A DNA stretch of 34,328 bases from an uncultured Chthonomonas sp. (GTDB lineage Bacteria > Armatimonadota > Chthonomonadetes > Chthonomonadales > CAJBBX01). Positions 16,672-24,769 of the stretch are shown in pieces; positions within the stretch are counted from its first letter, which is position 1, and each line of letters opens with the position of its first letter. A program made the position numbers and the translations under genes. The stretch covers positions 1-34,328 of the forward strand of contig CAJBBX010000019.1 of the NCBI GenBank assembly GCA_903951425.1, given 5' to 3'. The notes under the pieces are model-generated. The model searched no databases, was not told the DNA's origin, and was given only the letters and a program-made list of their open reading frames with translations.

Positions 16672-17943
16672 CTAGAGGCACCGGTCCACCTTGTTGACGG
16701 CGGCCGCCATGGCCTCGGCATGGTGCGTCTGCGTCTTCATGTTGAAGCCGAACCGCAGGGCCCGGCCGAGCAGGTCGAGCGTCTTGGGGCACATGTCCTG
16801 GCTGTACGTCACGCTACCGGCATAGGCCGGGTGGGTCCACGGTGAAGCGGCGTGGTGGTGGCTCCGCTTCTGCAGGATGGAGTCCCAGTAGCGGTAGATG
16901 TGCCGGTCCGGGAAGCTGTCGGTATGAGCCGCACCGCACGGCAGACCCTCGGTGGTGAGGGCGTCGGCGAAACGGCCCACCAGAGCCGCGTCGTTCACGA
17001 TGATCGCCGCGCTGATCCCGCAGTCGCCGTCGGGGTCGTCCACATGCTGCCGGACGTAGTGCCGCGGCTCGGCGAGGCCAGCCAAGAACGTGTGCTTCAT
17101 GGCTCGTGTGTGAGCCAGGATTGCATCCAGGCGGCCCAACTGCACCAGCGCCAATGCGCCCAGAAGCTCGCTGGGTCGGAAGCAGCTGGCGGAGAAGGGA
17201 GGCTCGCCCCAGCCATCGGTGGCGATGGTCTCTTTCATCCACATCGGAAGCGCCGGGTCTGAGGCGAAGCAGGCCCGCTCGTGGACGCCGTAGTCGTCGG
17301 TCACCACGAGGCCACCCTCGCCGCAGGTGATGATCTTGAAGTAGTTGAGGCTCCAGGCCCCCGCGTCGCCGATGCTGCCCACCGGTTTGCCGAAGTACTC
17401 GCCGCCGATGCACTGGCAGCAATCCTCCACCACGGCCAGCCCGTGTCGTCGGCATAGGGCCATCAGGTCGTTGATGCGCGCGGGGACGCCCTGCATGTAG
17501 ACGGGTATGACGGCCTTGGTCTGCGGCGTGACCTTCGCCTCGACGTCGCGCGGGTCAAGGCCCAGCGATTCGTCGATCTCGGCGATGACGGGGACCGCCC
17601 CGCAGGCCACCACAGCCGCCGCAGTGGCAATATAGGTGTATCCGGGGATGATCACCTCGTCCCCTGGGCCCACGCCGACGCCCTGCAAGGCGCAGACCAG
17701 CGCGCTGGTGCCGGAGTTGACCATCAGCCCGTGCTTCCGGCCCAGCCGCGCGCAGGCTACGGCCTCGAAGGCGCGGACCCGGCTGTCCTCGACGAACCTG
17801 AACAGCTTGCCGGTGCGCAGCACCGCCTCGACGGCCTGGACCTCCTCGTCGCCGATGCAACTGACTCCCGGCCCGCCGCCCGTGGAGGGCAGGGGATCGG
17901 AAATGGTCGGACTTCCGCCGTCGATCGCCAGACGCTCGCTCAT
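16672..17943 (-). CDS. DegT/DnrJ/EryC1/StrS family PLP-dependent aminotransferase (423 aa)
   Basis: A sugar-type aminotransferase that transfers an amino group from glutamate or glutamine to a keto sugar or keto-cyclitol. Family marks: LRTGKLFRF near residue 45, NSGTSALVCAL (76-86), GDEVIIPGYTYIAT (94-107), VVEDCCQCIGGEYFGKPVG (171-189) and SLNYFKIITCGEGG (198-211) with Lys203 as the expected PLP Schiff-base residue. The Asp174 motif reads VEDCCQ rather than the usual VEDAAQ. The ATG at 17943 is supported by GGGAGG; the longer in-frame extension upstream runs into the divergent ccm promoter region and is out of keeping with the family. Cotranscribed with the Gfo/Idh dehydrogenase. The N-terminal LAIDGGSPT resembles StsC/GlcNAc-type scyllo-inosose aminotransferases, a possible but unproven role. 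Confidence 0.92.
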   Translation of the reverse strand: MSERLAIDGGSPTISDPLPSTGGGPGVSCIGDEEVQAVEAVLRTGKLFRFVEDSRVRAFEAVACARLGRKHGLMVNSGTSALVCALQGVGVGPGDEVIIPGYTYIATAAAVVACGAVPVIAEIDESLGLDPRDVEAKVTPQTKAVIPVYMQGVPARINDLMALCRRHGLAVVEDCCQCIGGEYFGKPVGSIGDAGAWSLNYFKIITCGEGGLVVTDDYGVHERACFASDPALPMWMKETIATDGWGEPPFSASCFRPSELLGALALVQLGRLDAILAHTRAMKHTFLAGLAEPRHYVRQHVDDPDGDCGISAAIIVNDAALVGRFADALTTEGLPCGAAHTDSFPDRHIYRYWDSILQKRSHHHAASPWTHPAYAGSVTYSQDMCPKTLDLLGRALRFGFNMKTQTHHAEAMAAAVNKVDRCL

Positions 17944-18019
17944 GTCGGTACCTCCCGCTGTTGTGCGCCTATACGGTTCGCCGTCGGACCCGCGACTCCT
18001 GCCCGCTGGAGGCCCCCAC

Positions 18020-18028
18020 TGGTATAAT
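18020..18028 (+). promoter_or_regulatory. Extended -10 promoter of the ccm operon
   Basis: TGG-TATAAT is a perfect extended -10 element. No recognisable -35 is present at the expected distance. Transcription would start near 18035, 27 bases before the ccmA ATG. The site lies in the 118-bp divergent gap with the aminotransferase gene. Confidence 0.62.
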
Positions 18029-18061
18029 GGCCGGTGGCAAAAGGGGCGAGGGCGCGCATTG

Positions 18062-18706
18062 ATGGCGACGGGCACGGTGGCGGTGAAGCTGGCAGTGCAG
18101 GATGTCTGCGTCCGGTTCGGGCGTCGGGACGTCTTCGGCAGCGTCAGCCTCAGCGTGGAGTCCGGCGGCGTCGTGGCTGTGTCGGGTCCCAACGGCTCCG
18201 GCAAGAGCACCCTCCTGCGCGCCGTATGCGGCCTGCTCACCCCGTCCGGCGGCGCGGTTCGCCTCACCGTGGCTGATCGGGCGGTGCCCCAGCAAGATGT
18301 TCGGCGGCATATCGGCTTGGCCGCCCCCGACCTGGGCCTCTACCGCTCCCTGACTGCTGCCGAACACCTCCAGTTCGCTGCGCAAATGCACGGCGTGGAC
18401 GGCTCTATTGATCGTCTGCGCGACCTTCTGACCCTCGTCGGCCTCCGCGGCCGCGGGCGCGACGCCGTGGGCTCCTACTCCACCGGCATGCGGCACCGCC
18501 TCCGCTACGCCCTGGCGCTGATCCACGAGCCCGCGCTCCTGATGCTCGATGAACCCACGGCCAATCTTGACGCCGAGGGGGCTGCCGTGGTGAAGTCCAT
18601 CGTGGAGCGCCAACGCAGCCACGGCGCCGTGCTCATGGCTACCAACGAAGCCTCCGAGACCTCCTGGGCGGACCATGTCTGCGTTCTGGGCGCCGCGCGG
18701 ACATGA
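18062..18706 (+). CDS. ccmA: Heme exporter ATP-binding protein CcmA
   Basis: A 214-residue ABC ATPase, normal length for CcmA. The Walker A is GPNGSGKST (42-50), the signature reads YSTGMRHRL (139-147) as in many CcmA proteins, and Walker B is LLMLDEP (159-165). With CcmB it forms the ATPase that releases holo-CcmE from CcmC-heme during cytochrome c maturation. It is the first gene of ccmABCDEF; its TGA overlaps the ccmB ATG by four bases. The identification rests on both motif and the unambiguous gene order. Confidence 0.93.
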   Translation: MATGTVAVKLAVQDVCVRFGRRDVFGSVSLSVESGGVVAVSGPNGSGKSTLLRAVCGLLTPSGGAVRLTVADRAVPQQDVRRHIGLAAPDLGLYRSLTAAEHLQFAAQMHGVDGSIDRLRDLLTLVGLRGRGRDAVGSYSTGMRHRLRYALALIHEPALLMLDEPTANLDAEGAAVVKSIVERQRSHGAVLMATNEASETSWADHVCVLGAART

Positions 18707-19395
18707 CGCAGGAGAGGAAAACCGTAGGCCTGCTTTCCGGCGCATACGCCGTGCTGCGCAAGGAGCTCCAGACCGAGCTGCGCGATCGTGCCGCCCTCAA
18801 CGCCACGCTCCTCTTCTCGGTGGCCGGGCTCGCCATCGTGGCCTACGGCGTGGGACCCGCAGTGCTGCCCGCGGTGGTGCAGTCTGCCCTCCTTTGGGTT
18901 GTCCTCTTCTTTGCGGCGTTCAGCGGCTTAGCGCACGTCTTCACGCATGAGGAGGAGGCCGGCACGTCTGCCTTTCTTCGTCTCACAGCGGATGCCCATG
19001 CGGTGTATCTCGGCAAGCTGCTCTTCAACCTGCTGCTCACGGCCCTGATCGCGCTGATCACCGTGCCTGCCGGGTTGGTCGCCGTGTCCGCTTCGCCAGA
19101 CCGCCCGTGGATGTTCGCCGCTGTGGCGCTGGCCGGCGTGCTGGCATTGGCTACTTCGGCAACGGTCGTGGCCGCCATCATTGCCCGAGCGCAGGGCCGC
19201 GGGGCGCTGTTCGGCGCCGTGGGACTGCCCCTCCTCCTGCCCGTGCTGCTCATCGCCGTTGACGCCACGAAGAACACGCTGGAGCCCGAGATGATCGCCG
19301 GCCTCGCCGGCCGCGAGATTGTGGGCCTCTGTGCCTTTGCCGTCATGGTCATTGCGGCTTCGTGGCTAGTTTTCCCGGCCGTATGGGAGGAGTGA
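18703..19395 (+). CDS. ccmB: Heme exporter membrane protein CcmB
   Basis: A 230-residue membrane protein with about six hydrophobic helices and the CcmB start KELQTELRDRAALNATLLFS. The next recognisable family stretches are VVLFFAAFSGLAHVFTHEEE (around 66-85), KLLFNLLLTALIALITVP, and GRGALFGAVGLPLLLPVLL. CcmB is the permease subunit paired with CcmA in the holo-CcmE release complex at the inner membrane. It starts with an ATGA overlap with ccmA. Length and hydropathy fit the family. Confidence 0.93.
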   Translation: MTQERKTVGLLSGAYAVLRKELQTELRDRAALNATLLFSVAGLAIVAYGVGPAVLPAVVQSALLWVVLFFAAFSGLAHVFTHEEEAGTSAFLRLTADAHAVYLGKLLFNLLLTALIALITVPAGLVAVSASPDRPWMFAAVALAGVLALATSATVVAAIIARAQGRGALFGAVGLPLLLPVLLIAVDATKNTLEPEMIAGLAGREIVGLCAFAVMVIAASWLVFPAVWEE

Positions 19396-19427
19396 CCCGT
19401 CGTGATGCGTATTGCTACGGTGTACCC

Positions 19428-20159
19428 ATGAAACCACTAACCACTCCAACACGAGTCTGCGGGGCCTGGTGGAAACTAGGCTCGGCTCTCTTCATGTTCG
19501 CCACCATCGTGGTCGGCCTCGCCGTCGCTGGTCCGGTGAGAACTCCGGACGGCGTCGCGATGTTCACGATGGGCGGCCACGGCGCCAAGCTCATCTTCTT
19601 CCATGTGCCGTGCGCCTGGCTTGCCAGTCTGGCTTACATCGTTGGGGCCATCTACGCCGTGCGTGTGCTTGTCTCCGGCAGCAAGTCGCTTGAGGTCCAA
19701 GTGGACCTGGACATCAAGGCCTGCACCGCCATGGAACTGGGCTTGGTGTTCGCACTCCTGGCCACGGTGACCGGGAGCATCTTCTCGCACAACGAGTGGC
19801 TCACGTTCTGGAACTGGCGTGAGCCCCGCATGGTATCAATCTTCGTCATCCTGCTCATTTTCGCCGCGTATCTGGTGCTGCGGCAGGCCATCGACAATCC
19901 GAACCGTCGGGCCCGGTTGGCCGCAGCCTATGCCCTGATCGCAGTGGTGCCCGGGCTGTTCCTGATCTGGGTGCTGCCGAGGATGGTGGCCACTCTCCAC
20001 GGTGACGCCAACCAGGCGGTGATGGGCAACAACCTTGGTGGAATGTACCGACCGGTGTTGCGCTATCTGGCGCTGCCGGCGTTTCTCGGCCTGTTCGGCT
20101 GGATGTTTCAGCTGGGCGTCAGGGCCAAGCGCCTCGCGGTGCGCCATGCGGCCGAGTAG
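19428..20159 (+). CDS. ccmC: Heme handling protein CcmC (WWD-domain)
   Basis: A 243-residue six-helix membrane protein that loads heme onto CcmE. Periplasmic His59 in IFFHVPCAW corresponds to the conserved first heme-ligand histidine; a second candidate is His191 in ATLHGD. The tryptophan-rich WWD loop is at 124-137 (WLTFWNWREPRMVS). The usual Trp-Asp step is replaced by Trp-Arg-Glu, so the Asp that names the motif is not in its usual place. The ATG at 19428 is chosen: in-frame starts at 19383 and 19392 overlap the ccmB end and have no properly spaced ribosome-binding site, although the site at 19428 is also weak. Length matches the family (about 245). Confidence 0.9.
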   Translation: MKPLTTPTRVCGAWWKLGSALFMFATIVVGLAVAGPVRTPDGVAMFTMGGHGAKLIFFHVPCAWLASLAYIVGAIYAVRVLVSGSKSLEVQVDLDIKACTAMELGLVFALLATVTGSIFSHNEWLTFWNWREPRMVSIFVILLIFAAYLVLRQAIDNPNRRARLAAAYALIAVVPGLFLIWVLPRMVATLHGDANQAVMGNNLGGMYRPVLRYLALPAFLGLFGWMFQLGVRAKRLAVRHAAE

Positions 20160-20195
20160 TCGCGGCCGGCGCCGATAGGGAAGGGTAAGCCGCAA

Positions 20196-20318
20196 ATGTC
20201 CATGTGGTCACTGGTCGTCGTACCGCTGCTGGTCTGGATCGGTACGGTTGCATACCTCGTCAAGATCGACCTGCAGCTATCGAAGCTTGAGGCCGCCACG
20301 CAGGAAGTCGATCTGTGA
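20196..20318 (+). CDS. ccmD: CcmD-like small membrane protein (40 aa)
   Basis: A 40-codon gene too short for ordinary gene finders. Its product has one hydrophobic helix (about 4-22: WSLVVVPLLVWIGTVAYL) and a charged C-terminal tail with KIDLQLSKLEAATQEVDL. CcmD proteins are 40-70 residues with exactly this plan and lie between ccmC and ccmE; CcmD helps release holo-CcmE from CcmABC. An AAGGG lies upstream of the ATG, and the stop overlaps the GTG start of ccmE (GTGA), so both termini fit translational coupling. Sequence conservation in CcmD is low, so position is the stronger argument. Confidence 0.75.
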   Translation: MSMWSLVVVPLLVWIGTVAYLVKIDLQLSKLEAATQEVDL

Positions 20319-20707
20319 AGCCCGGTTACATTGTGGCCCTCGTGGTGCTGGTCGTAGCCATGTGCGCCGCCATCTACAGCTTCAGCGGCGTCGTGGCCCA
20401 GCACGCCGATATTGCGGCCGCCGTCAGCCGGCCTGGACAGACGCTGCAAATCCCCGGCAAGATACGCAAGGAGACGGTGAAGTACGAGATCACCAACGGC
20501 AGGGGCTCGCTAAAGTTCGTGATCGAGGACTTCGCTGATCCGACCAGGACCATGCAGATCGTCTATGCGAAGCCCAAGCCGGAGAACTTCGATGCCGCGG
20601 TCAGTGTCGAAGCCATCGGCGAGTACCGCTCGGGCGTGTTCGAGGCGCACAACCTGTTGGTAAAGTGCCCATCCAAGTACAACGACCAGGCCAGCGCGGC
20701 CAAGTAG
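20315..20707 (+). CDS. ccmE: Heme chaperone CcmE, Cys-x3-Tyr variant
   Basis: A 130-residue heme chaperone: one N-terminal membrane helix (about 5-24), then an OB-fold. IPGKIRKETVKYEI, FVIEDFADPTRTMQIVYA and VEAIGEYRSGVFEAHNLLVK are the family strands. The heme-binding motif after NLLVK is Cys118-Pro-Ser-Lys-Tyr122, where classical CcmE has His-x3-Tyr. Cys-type CcmE is known from Desulfovibrio and archaea, where CcmG/CcmH/CcmI are missing too, as they are here. Translation starts at a GTG overlapping the ccmD stop. Heme attachment through this Cys, rather than His, is inferred from those systems. Confidence 0.93.
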   Translation: MKPGYIVALVVLVVAMCAAIYSFSGVVAQHADIAAAVSRPGQTLQIPGKIRKETVKYEITNGRGSLKFVIEDFADPTRTMQIVYAKPKPENFDAAVSVEAIGEYRSGVFEAHNLLVKCPSKYNDQASAAK

Positions 20708-20737
20708 GCGTAGCCGAGGGAGCCTGAAGGGAGCCAC

Positions 20738-23152
20738 ATGGAGATCGGTCGTTGGCTAATGGTGCTGGGGCTCGCGTCCTCGGTCCTCTGTGTCGTCCTC
20801 TACGCGGCGGTCTCGAGGCAGGCTCGGGCCATCATGTGGGCGCGCCTGATGTTCGCTCTCGCCGCATTCTGTGCCGTGGGCGGCTTCTGGCGTCTCATGT
20901 TCCTGGTCTCGAACTACCGCTTCCAGTACCAGTACGTGTACGACTATGTCTCCGCCGACCTGCAGGGAAAGTTCCTCTACTCCGCCACGTGGGCGGGGCA
21001 GGAGGGCAGCTTCCTGCTATGGGCGGTCTGGACCGGCATCCTCGGCCTCTTCGTGATCTGGAAGTCCGGGCGCTGGGAAGCGCGTGTGATGCCCTTCTAC
21101 GTGGCGTCGCTGGCGTTCCTCTTCGGCATTCTGATCTGGCTGAGCCCGTACGTCATGCTCCCACGAGGTGGCGCCGACGGCTACCCGATGGATATGGCCT
21201 GGCCGCCGGTTGACGGCAATGGGCTGAACCCGTCGCTGCAAAACTACTGGATGGCCATCCATCCGCCCACCATCTTCCTCGGCTTCGTGGGCTTGGCCGT
21301 GCCCTTCGCCTATGCGTTGGCCGCCCTGGCTTGGAAGGATCACTCCGACTACGCGGCCCGGTCGCTTCCGTGGACCGGCCTGGCGGTGGCCTTTCTGGGT
21401 ATTGGCCTCTTCATGGGCGGCTACTGGGCCTATGAGACGCAGGGCTGGCATGGCTTCTGGGCATGGGATCCGGTGGAGAACGCCTCACTCTTCCCATGGC
21501 TGGCGTCCATAGGCTTGCTCCACGGGTTGCTTGTCCAGCGGTACCGCGGCGGCATGGCGCGAACCAACCTGGTGCTGGCCATGCTCGGATGGGTGATGTT
21601 CATCTACGGGACCTTCCTAACGCGGTCCGGTGTGCTCTCGAGCTTCTCGGTGCATGCCTTCAGTTCGCTGGACAAGGGCGCGCTCTGGTTGCTGATCGCC
21701 ATGGTGGCGCTCTCGGTGCTCGTTAGCTTCGTGCTGCTTATCTGGCGCTGGAAGTCCATTCCACGGCCGCCGGCCGACGCCTCGCCCCTCTCGCGGGATA
21801 CGGCTCTGTCTATCTGCGTCACGCTGGCGTTGGTCTCATCTATCGTCGTGGCGGGCGGTACGTCCTGGCCGCTGATCTCGCGGTGGCCCCTGCTGCACAA
21901 GATCCCGTTCCTTGCCGGCCTCACTGCCGACACGGGCGTGCGCGTCGAGCCCATCTTCTACAACGTCTCCGGCGTCGTGTTGCTCACCCCCGCCCTGCTG
22001 GCCATGGCGATCGTGCCCGTGCTCACGTGGCGCAAGGCCAACTCCGAGCAAGCCATGTGGCGCCTCATGGGGCCCTGGTTCACCGCCATCGCGCTGGGCT
22101 TTGCCGTCGCGTGGTTCGTGCAGCATGAGGCCGCTATCGGCTTCAAGGCCGACACACCGCGCCTGGTGGTGGTGATCGTCTCCACGCTGAGCCTCTTTGC
22201 GGCGTTCGTTAACATCGTGGCCCTGATCAAGGCGTTCCGGGGTGGATTGCTTGTGACCGGGGGCTGGCTGGCCCACGTCGGCATCGGACTGCTCATGGTG
22301 GGTACGGTGGTCTCCAACTCCTACGAGAAGTCAACCGACATGATGCTGCTCGAAGGCGCCGATCCCGCGCCGACCCCGTACGGCTACTCGCTGCAGTTCG
22401 AGGGTTGGACCCACGACGGCAAGAGTCACGATGAGGTCCAGAAGGCCTGGTGGATGTTTGACCACGCGGTCAAGATCAACGTTACGCCGTCCGACGGCAA
22501 GGGCAAGGGGTTCGTGGCGCAACCGCCGGTCTTCTACCACCGCCAACTGGTCATGAACCAGGAGGAGGGCGCACCGCAGACCATGCGCTGGCCGCATATC
22601 CACCGCGAGCTGCAGCGCGACTTCTACATCGCCATCGCCAGCGACCCGAAGCTCATCCGTCCATCGGCGACATTGCGGCCTGGTGAGACCGCCTCGATTG
22701 GGACGCCGGGGCTGGAGATGACCCGGTACTCGGTTCGGTACAAGAAGATCTACACCGAGGGCGAGATGTCGGCCGGCGGCATCATCGGCGCCGAGATGGA
22801 GCTCAAGACGCCCGACGGCAAGTCGATCCCGATCCGACCGGGCATCCGCATCGGCTCCGCCGAGGGCGGCGCCTTGCAGGTCAACACAGAAGTGCCCGAC
22901 CTTAACGGTGCTGTGATCCTGGAGGGCGGCATCGATCCGTCCACGCAACAAGTGACGGTGGCGTTCGAATTGCCGGATGCACCGGCTCGGTGGACGATCC
23001 CGGTCGCGATCACGAATAAGCCCGCCGTCAACCTGGTCTGGCTTGGCGTCGTGCTATTGGGGATCGGTTCGCTGTTGGCCACAGTCCGCCGTAGCTTGGA
23101 GGCGGGAAAGAGCCAGTTGGCCCCGGCGCCGGGGTCGGTCGGAACGCCGTAG
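20738..23152 (+). CDS. ccmF: Cytochrome c heme lyase subunit CcmF, long form (804 aa)
   Basis: A polytopic membrane protein of the CcmF/CycK family. All four expected heme-ligand histidines can be placed: His175 in WMAIHPPTIF, His262 in IGLLHGLL, His306 in SFSVHAFSS, and the later WLAHVGIGLLMVG. The WWD loop is GWHGFWAWDPVENAS (236-250). The chain is about 150 residues longer than the E. coli protein, mostly in a large extracytoplasmic domain that begins after SNSYEKSTDMML and ends before the last membrane helix. CcmF accepts heme from CcmE and attaches it to CxxCH in apocytochromes. With no CcmH or CcmI encoded here, this longer domain might bind apocytochrome; that is inference. GGGAG precedes the ATG, and a strong hairpin ends the operon. 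Confidence 0.95.
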   Translation: MEIGRWLMVLGLASSVLCVVLYAAVSRQARAIMWARLMFALAAFCAVGGFWRLMFLVSNYRFQYQYVYDYVSADLQGKFLYSATWAGQEGSFLLWAVWTGILGLFVIWKSGRWEARVMPFYVASLAFLFGILIWLSPYVMLPRGGADGYPMDMAWPPVDGNGLNPSLQNYWMAIHPPTIFLGFVGLAVPFAYALAALAWKDHSDYAARSLPWTGLAVAFLGIGLFMGGYWAYETQGWHGFWAWDPVENASLFPWLASIGLLHGLLVQRYRGGMARTNLVLAMLGWVMFIYGTFLTRSGVLSSFSVHAFSSLDKGALWLLIAMVALSVLVSFVLLIWRWKSIPRPPADASPLSRDTALSICVTLALVSSIVVAGGTSWPLISRWPLLHKIPFLAGLTADTGVRVEPIFYNVSGVVLLTPALLAMAIVPVLTWRKANSEQAMWRLMGPWFTAIALGFAVAWFVQHEAAIGFKADTPRLVVVIVSTLSLFAAFVNIVALIKAFRGGLLVTGGWLAHVGIGLLMVGTVVSNSYEKSTDMMLLEGADPAPTPYGYSLQFEGWTHDGKSHDEVQKAWWMFDHAVKINVTPSDGKGKGFVAQPPVFYHRQLVMNQEEGAPQTMRWPHIHRELQRDFYIAIASDPKLIRPSATLRPGETASIGTPGLEMTRYSVRYKKIYTEGEMSAGGIIGAEMELKTPDGKSIPIRPGIRIGSAEGGALQVNTEVPDLNGAVILEGGIDPSTQQVTVAFELPDAPARWTIPVAITNKPAVNLVWLGVVLLGIGSLLATVRRSLEAGKSQLAPAPGSVGTP

Positions 23153-23180
23153 CGGCTTTCGGGCCGCAGCAGGGCAGACG

Positions 23181-23214
23181 CACCGAGGGCGCGCCACACG
23201 GCGCGCCCTCGGTG
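23181..23214. terminator. Perfect 15-bp inverted repeat, bidirectional terminator
   Basis: CACCGAGGGCGCGCC (23181-23195) pairs perfectly with 23200-23214 across the four-base loop ACAC. It sits in the 69-bp gap between convergent ccmF and P5C dehydrogenase genes and would serve both. No U-tract is present on the plus side. Confidence 0.8.
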
Positions 23215-23221
23215 ATTCGGG

Positions 23222-24769
23222 CTACAGCTTCTCGGCTACCGACTTGCCCTGCATGAAAAGCTGCAGGTAATCGCGGCCGCCGGCCTTGCTGTCGGTTCCG
23301 CTCATGTTGAAGCCGCCGAAGGGCTGCACATCGACCAGCGCCCCCGTGCACTTGCGGTTCAGGTAGAGGTTGCCCACGTGGAAGTCGGCCCGCGCCCTCT
23401 CCAGCCGGGCGCGGATGCCCGAGAAGAGCGCACCGGTGAGGCCGTAGTCGGTGCCGTTGGCGATCTCCAGCGCGTGGTCGAAGTCAGCGGCGCTGATGAC
23501 GGCCAGCACCGGTCCGAAGATCTCCTCCTGCGCGATACGGGCATCTGGCGCCACGTTGTCGATGATGGTGATCGGCACGAACTGGCCGTCGCCGTCTGGG
23601 ACGCCGCTCTGGTAGACCAGGTCGCCCTCCTGCCGTCCGATCTCGATGTACTCGTGGATCTTGCGCACGGCTCCTGGATCAACCACCGCGCCGAGGTCGA
23701 TGCCCTGGCAGGCGGGGTCGCCCATGGTGAGTCTCGGCGCCAGCGCCAGGACCCGCGCCATGAGGGCGTCGTGGACGTCGTCAACCACGATCAGTCGCGA
23801 GCAGGCCGAGCACTTCTGGCCCTGGTAGCCGAAGGCTGAGGCTACCACGGCCGCAGCGGCGGCATCGAGGTCGGCGGTCTCATCAACGATGATGGCGTCC
23901 TTGCCGCCCATCTCCAGCACGGTGCGCTTCAGCCACTTCTGGCCCCGATGCACCTTGGCGGCGCGCTCGTGGATGCGGACGCCCACCTCGCGTGAGCCGG
24001 TAAAGGATATGAAGCGGGTCAACGGGTGGTCGACCAGGACGTCGCCGACCGAGCTTCCGGGGCCGGGCACGAAGTTGACAACGCCCGCCGGTAGGCCCGC
24101 CTCCTCCAGAATCTCCATGAACTTGGCGGCCACAACGGGCGACTGCGAGGCGGGCTTCACCACCACCGTGTTCCCCGCGGCGGCGGCGGCGCCGGTCATC
24201 CCCGCCATAATGGCGAGCGGGAAGTTCCAAGGCGAGATCACCACGCCCACGCCAAGCGGTACGTAGCGGACCTCGTTCTCCTCGCCGGGACTGGGCGTCG
24301 AGGGAAGGGGAGCGGCCAGGCGCATCATCTCTCGGGCGTAGAGCTCGAGGAAGTCCACCGCCTCAGCCGCGTCGGCATAGGCCTCGATCCAGGACTTGCT
24401 CACTTCGACGACCAACCAGGCCGAGAACTCGTAGATGCGCCGTCGTAGGATGGCGGCGGCCTTCAGGATGATACGAGCCCGCACCACCGGGGGCACAGCC
24501 CGCCACTCATCAAACGTGGCGGCGGCGCAACGGATGGCGCGGTCGGCGAGCTCAGGCGTGGCGCTGCCCGTGCGCCCGACGATGCGGCTGGGTGCGACTG
24601 GGTTCGCCGAGACGATGGTAGCGTCGGTTGTGATCCGTTCGCCGCCAATGATCAGTGGATAGTATTGGTCAGCCTGCGATGCCACCAGATCCAGCGCGGC
24701 GCGCATGGCGGCGGCAGGTCCGGGCTGCGTGAAGTCAGGGTAGGGCTCATTCGCGTAAGGGGGGAGCAT
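23222..24769 (-). CDS. rocA: L-glutamate gamma-semialdehyde (1-pyrroline-5-carboxylate) dehydrogenase, RocA type
   Basis: A 515-residue aldehyde dehydrogenase, the normal length for RocA-type P5C dehydrogenase, which oxidises glutamate semialdehyde to glutamate with NAD+ in proline and arginine breakdown. Seen are the N-terminal YPLIIGGERI, the cofactor stretch VVISPWNFPLAIMAG (176-190), FTGSREVG (256-263), the general base Glu286 in LEMGGKDAI, and the catalytic Cys320 in GQKCSACSR, both with P5CDH-type surroundings. The GGFNMSGTDSKAGG near the C-terminus is also typical. The ATG is supported by GGAGG five bases upstream. No proline dehydrogenase (putA/putB) lies in the window. Confidence 0.93.
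   Translation of the reverse strand: MLPPYANEPYPDFTQPGPAAAMRAALDLVASQADQYYPLIIGGERITTDATIVSANPVAPSRIVGRTGSATPELADRAIRCAAATFDEWRAVPPVVRARIILKAAAILRRRIYEFSAWLVVEVSKSWIEAYADAAEAVDFLELYAREMMRLAAPLPSTPSPGEENEVRYVPLGVGVVISPWNFPLAIMAGMTGAAAAAGNTVVVKPASQSPVVAAKFMEILEEAGLPAGVVNFVPGPGSSVGDVLVDHPLTRFISFTGSREVGVRIHERAAKVHRGQKWLKRTVLEMGGKDAIIVDETADLDAAAAAVVASAFGYQGQKCSACSRLIVVDDVHDALMARVLALAPRLTMGDPACQGIDLGAVVDPGAVRKIHEYIEIGRQEGDLVYQSGVPDGDGQFVPITIIDNVAPDARIAQEEIFGPVLAVISAADFDHALEIANGTDYGLTGALFSGIRARLERARADFHVGNLYLNRKCTGALVDVQPFGGFNMSGTDSKAGGRDYLQLFMQGKSVAEKL

Follow-up and report, generated by a model that had tools for sequence, protein, structure and literature searches.

Does a ccm locus whose heme chaperone CcmE carries a cysteine where the classical System I protein has its heme-binding histidine, and which contains no ccmG, ccmH or ccmI, encode a working cytochrome c maturation pathway, and is it an oddity of one genome or the usual condition of its phylum? 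The locus lies in a stretch of 34,328 nucleotides (the window; contig CAJBBX010000019.1, positions 1 to 34,328) from the MAG of an Armatimonadota member close to Chthonomonas, an assembly of 6.08 Mb and 188 contigs with ratings of 100% completeness and 3% contamination. The Cys-type variant of CcmE is known in the literature as System I* (Allen 2006; review PMC3601427). According to that 2011 review, CPSKY is the commonest motif of the system (present in 25 of 36 bacterial genomes surveyed), roughly a third of its members have CcmH, its hosts include delta-proteobacteria, Chloroflexi and Firmicutes, and the Desulfovibrio desulfuricans operon lacking CcmG and CcmH is functional in Escherichia coli. 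The evidence described below suggests, with a probability of roughly 90%, that the locus encodes a CcmH-independent System I* pathway with a Cys-heme CcmE, and that most Armatimonadota have inherited this arrangement as their ordinary condition.

The genes ccmA to ccmF form one array with short or overlapping junctions (18062-23152, plus strand; Table 1). CcmB, CcmC, CcmE and CcmF scored above their Pfam cut-offs, while CcmA and the CcmD-like ORF fell just below theirs; the System I* gene set (CcmA, B, C, E and F) is thus present by Pfam and NCBIfam matches, CcmA being recognized through ABC_tran and a near-cut-off ccmA match. Neither ccmG, ccmH nor ccmI was found within the array, which is flanked by genes unrelated to ccm, a DegT-type aminotransferase-like ORF upstream and an aldehyde-dehydrogenase-like ORF downstream, both on the minus strand and assigned by eye. 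Gene order and flanks therefore bear out the sequence-only reading of a ccmABCDEF array devoid of ccmG, ccmH and ccmI at the locus. That reading had also bounded the array with a promoter at 18020 and a perfect hairpin at 23181. The hairpin is real when compared with shuffled sequences; it lacks a T tract, and no intrinsic terminator was called there. A sigma-70-type scan of 17850-23400 returned no promoter, a TATAAT near 18023 standing there without a -35 hexamer.

Table 1. Features of the ccm array, with positions in the window.
Feature	Position	Strand	Evidence
ccmA, heme-export ABC ATPase	18062..18706	+	ABC_tran 2.2e-24; TIGR01189 ccmA 122.7 bits, just below the cut-off of 131.6
ccmB, ABC membrane subunit	18703..19395	+	Pfam CcmB 55.2 bits, cut-off 24.9
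ccmC, heme delivery to CcmE, WWD box WNWREPR	19428..20159	+	Cytochrom_C_asm 8.9e-17; TIGR01191 ccmC 83.9 bits; motif from alignment
ccmD-like small membrane protein, 40 aa	20196..20318	+	CcmD_alt 21.1 bits, just below the cut-off of 23.5
ccmE, Cys-type heme chaperone, N-terminal TM helix and OB fold	20315..20707	+	PF03100 52 bits
CPSKY motif, Cys118 (TGC, 20666-20668) and Tyr122	20666..20680	+	invariant in alignment A2
ccmF, cytochrome c synthase, 804 aa	20738..23152	+	Cytochrom_C_asm 2.1e-25, CcmF_C 6e-17; alignment; fold match 6zmq, Z 35.3
enlarged last periplasmic loop of CcmF, residues 529-762, beta-rich in model	22322..23023	+	
15-bp hairpin 3' of ccmF, no T tract	23181..23214	+	z -7.2

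The ccmE ORF starts with GTG and encodes 130 amino acids (PF03100 E-value 9.5e-14). Codon 118 is TGC and opens the motif CPSKY at codons 118-122, so that cysteine stands in place of the heme-binding histidine of classical System I. A base error at this codon is excluded in practice, because the same cysteine occurs in two genomes of the same genus, which are also the nearest named records (an Armatimonadetes MAG, L003, with 87% identity, and an uncultured Chthonomonas, L004, with 78%), and in more than 100 other loci. The AF2 model of CcmE (pLDDT 83) predicts a single TM helix followed by an OB fold; its top fold match was the CcmE chain of the E. coli CcmABCDE complex 8ce8, and the best PDB sequence match was 2kct, the Cys-type CcmE of Desulfovibrio vulgaris. 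A plasmid search with this CcmE gave only three weak matches. In the neighbouring CcmC, the three genomes of the genus (L003, L004, L117 and L118 besides the window) all share the Trp-rich box WNWREPRM, which differs by one inserted residue and Glu for Asp from the WNWDPR of most other Armatimonadota; the Balneolota box is similar (W-x-F-A-E-P-R/K).

Questions concerning the whole genome were addressed through family searches. These detected one CcmE, with no second or His-type copy, and no CcmH: the best PF03918 match (contig C62) reached 14.4 bits against a cut-off of 25, and nothing was found at an E-value of 0.001. The proposal of a natural Cys-type Ccm system lacking CcmH was thereby supported. 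Membership of System II (CcsBA/ResBC) finds no counterpart, as ResB/CcsB was absent from the genome-wide PF05140 search at an E-value of 0.01; COX1 likewise gave no match in the genome. Potential clients of the pathway are present. At least four CxxCH proteins were predicted, a minimum because only some families were searched: a 446-aa cytochrome-bd-like subunit I that carries a cytochrome c domain (CSSCH) fused at its C-terminus (L205:7662-9002, contig C163), a 1308-aa protein (CVGCH and CVSCH; L206:6299-10225, contig C60), a 132-aa cytochrome (CGRCH) and a 659-aa frame (CLTCH and CASCH). A paired-CxxCH pattern had no match, the gap it allowed being too short for most multiheme proteins. The 1308-aa protein combines NPCBM, a hydrazine-synthase-alpha-like middle domain, the two CxxCH motifs and an FGE-sulfatase domain, and the bd-like subunit is adjoined downstream by a second membrane protein with no Pfam match. 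The genome also contains 15 Redoxin-type matches, in which CcmG and ResA were left unsplit, and three CcdA/DsbD-type matches; therefore, a thiol-reducing route is available.

Across the phylum, CcmE was detected in 198 of 291 Armatimonadota genomes and CcmH in four, one of them probably through contamination. The cysteine is present in all of 110 CcmE loci, which were chosen among the matches listed so as to represent different families; C-x3-Y is preserved in 109, the exception being CPSKE, in which Tyr is replaced (L182:3130-3555), and many families retain the gene order of the ccm locus. Among named sequences from outside the phylum, the 80 best matches were all of the Cys type, mostly from Balneolota/Bacteroidota, in a list that is biased to this type because one of the search peptides was KCPSKYND. 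The Cys-type CcmE is thus an already described variant that is the normal form across Armatimonadota, nearly always without CcmH. Consequently, its supposed rarity is not supported, and neither is its description as a rare outer-membrane lineage, Desulfovibrio being itself an outer-membrane lineage; the variant had, moreover, already been listed for several lineages (PMC3601427). The suggestion that the genome widens the distribution of the variant stands as far as Armatimonadota were not found linked to System I* in the open-licence literature searched; an earlier mention elsewhere is possible.

Some observations concern copy number, arrangement and motif. Several genomes of family f15 (L138, L139, L142, L150, L152, L192, L195) have two CcmE matches and at some loci of this family ccmF precedes ccmE, in some cases with ccmABC divergent; another Armatimonadota genome (G235) has five CcmE matches. 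The CcmE of a Halorussus halophilus plasmid (L225:6965-7336) reads RAHEGSD in the motif region, with His and no Tyr, while archaeal CcmE has been described as universally of the Cys type.

The presence of Cys in CcmE and the loss of CcmH are only loosely linked, because Cys-type CcmE adjoins CcmH in the genomes G003, G004 and G006, where CcmF is also a neighbour, and on a plasmid of the Gram-positive Cytobacillus firmus. This decoupling agrees with the proportion of CcmH-bearing members given by the review (PMC3601427). The strong CcmH match of a further genome, G136, was set aside as a probable contaminant: it lies on a 3-kb contig (C7, L202) beside a proteobacteria-like ccmF fragment and a ccmG-like redoxin, in a family otherwise lacking CcmH.

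For the System I* pathway proposed here, a sequence of steps can be outlined by analogy with Desulfovibrio and Methanosarcina. CcmAB, CcmC and the CcmD-like protein would place heme on the exported OB-fold chaperone CcmE, where it would be held through Cys118 instead of His, Tyr122 being a probable axial ligand. CcmF would then receive the heme, reduce it and join it to CxxCH apocytochromes without CcmH, with general CcdA/thioredoxin-type proteins probably holding the apocytochrome thiols reduced. Both the covalent nature of the Cys-heme bond and the order of these steps are inferred from the two analogous systems. Counting against the System I* explanation are the altered WWD box of CcmC in the genus and the fragmentation of the MAG.

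An alignment of 40 CcmF sequences showed no variation in the WWD box or in four His (175, 262, 306 and 513). The CcmF tree places the main Armatimonadota together (SH-aLRT 94), with a Bacteroidota/Balneolota group (99) as their sister, and a branch with 100% support splits both from family f4 and E. coli. This vertical-looking topology fits inheritance within the phylum; an ancient transfer between the two sister groups is possible. The last periplasmic loop, taken as the spacing from the conserved TM His (H513; H491 in E. coli) to the Trp of the last helix, measures 255 in the protein of the window, 219-337 in 54 main Armatimonadota, 215-255 in family f35 and 225-383 (median 299) in 58 Bacteroidota/Balneolota, figures that leave out eleven full-length CcmH-less sequences the script could not measure. 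Where CcmH is present, the spacing is 123 (E. coli and G006), 124 (Cytobacillus), 132 (G004) or 147 (G003), so that the CcmH-less clade (215-383) has roughly double the loop length found with CcmH (123-147); Sinorhizobium, the CcmH status of which was not read, has 123. This long-loop CcmF may be a new feature. In the AF2 model most of the loop is ordered and rich in beta structure, apart from two weaker stretches at about 561-580 and 601-620, and the rest of CcmF matches 6zmq; the loop region gave only low fold matches, to unrelated beta-rich proteins. A ResB-like identity of the loop was dropped, as the weak ResB match also appears in CcmF of E. coli and in CcmH-partnered CcmF.

These data raise the explanation that CcmF took over the job of CcmH, its doubled loop binding and positioning the apocytochrome by the WWD heme site. 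The contrast in spacing, the ordered beta-rich domain and the long loop (about 242) of the archaeal Halorussus CcmF, with no ccmH annotated at its locus, would agree with it. Yet two genomes with short loops and no detected CcmH (G001, 149; G002, 141) are exceptions to the rule, the length contrast may reflect just one or two evolutionary events, and the loop cannot replace the thiol chemistry of CcmH because it has almost no Cys; moreover, the separate C-terminal half CcmF1 of Methanosarcina acetivorans was reported as not strictly essential (PMC9084895). The takeover is regarded as unlikely, and similarly doubtful is its broader form, a CcmH-independent CcmF subtype common to Armatimonadota and Balneolota/Bacteroidota in which the enlarged ordered loop handles the apocytochrome as CcmH/CcmI do elsewhere.

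A second explanation, to which a comparably low probability is assigned, is that Cys118 only ligates the iron, heme being bound non-covalently and the transfer chain differing from that of the His system. The covalent step is uncertain because heme binding by D. vulgaris CcmE was reported as non-covalent in vitro (PMC3884852); against this, covalent binding has been reported for D. desulfuricans CcmE, and the CcmE of M. acetivorans is heme-stainable and requires Cys120 for heme attachment (PMC9084895). Finally, a false absence of ccmH due to gaps in the assembly or to a diverged sequence, for which the 188 contigs and the 14.4-bit best match could be invoked, is highly improbable given that 287 of the 291 genomes of the phylum, single-contig ones included, and all 30 genomes behind the named loci (a few of them Armatimonadota again) had no CcmH match. 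A CcmH too divergent for PF03918 is possible; this model does detect divergent members, including those of G004 and Cytobacillus (68.5 bits).

To our knowledge, no Ccm biochemistry exists for Armatimonadota. The value of the CcmH-independent System I* reading lies mainly in its phylum-wide distribution and in the CcmF loop. Since a whole phylum has the Cys-type heme chaperone as its standard form and a second large group commonly has it too, the His-type protein of E. coli may be the wrong default for bacteria. Armatimonadota also offer a natural comparison of Cys-type CcmE with CcmH (G003, G004 and G006) and without it (nearly all others), and the CcmF loop, the length of which largely tracks the presence or absence of CcmH, bears on what CcmH does.

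Among known systems, the Desulfovibrio System I* (Allen 2006; Goddard 2010, via PMC3601427) shares with the window the Cys-type CcmE, the lack of CcmH and, as far as the locus goes, of CcmG, and an outer-membrane host; the window belongs to a different phylum and has no CcmI-like gene at the locus. The CcmABCEF system of M. acetivorans, as described in PMC9084895, likewise combines a Cys-x3-Tyr CcmE with the lack of CcmH/CcmI (for CcmI, at the locus in the window), but its genes are scattered, CcmF is split into CcmF1 and CcmF2 and ccmD is missing, whereas in the window the ccm genes, a ccmD-like one included, sit in one compact operon and CcmF is undivided. The E. coli System I resembles the window in the CcmA-F families, the OB-fold CcmE and, within CcmF, the WWD box with the four His; it differs by His130 in CcmE, by possessing both CcmG and CcmH, and by a CcmF of 647 aa whose last loop is short. 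The loci of Balneolota/Bacteroidota (Rhodohalobacter, Gracilimonas) share the KCPSKYND CcmE, a long-loop CcmF that is sister in the tree and the lack of CcmH in the genomes tested, and they differ in a CcmE identity of about 30% and in a CcmF loop that is longer still.
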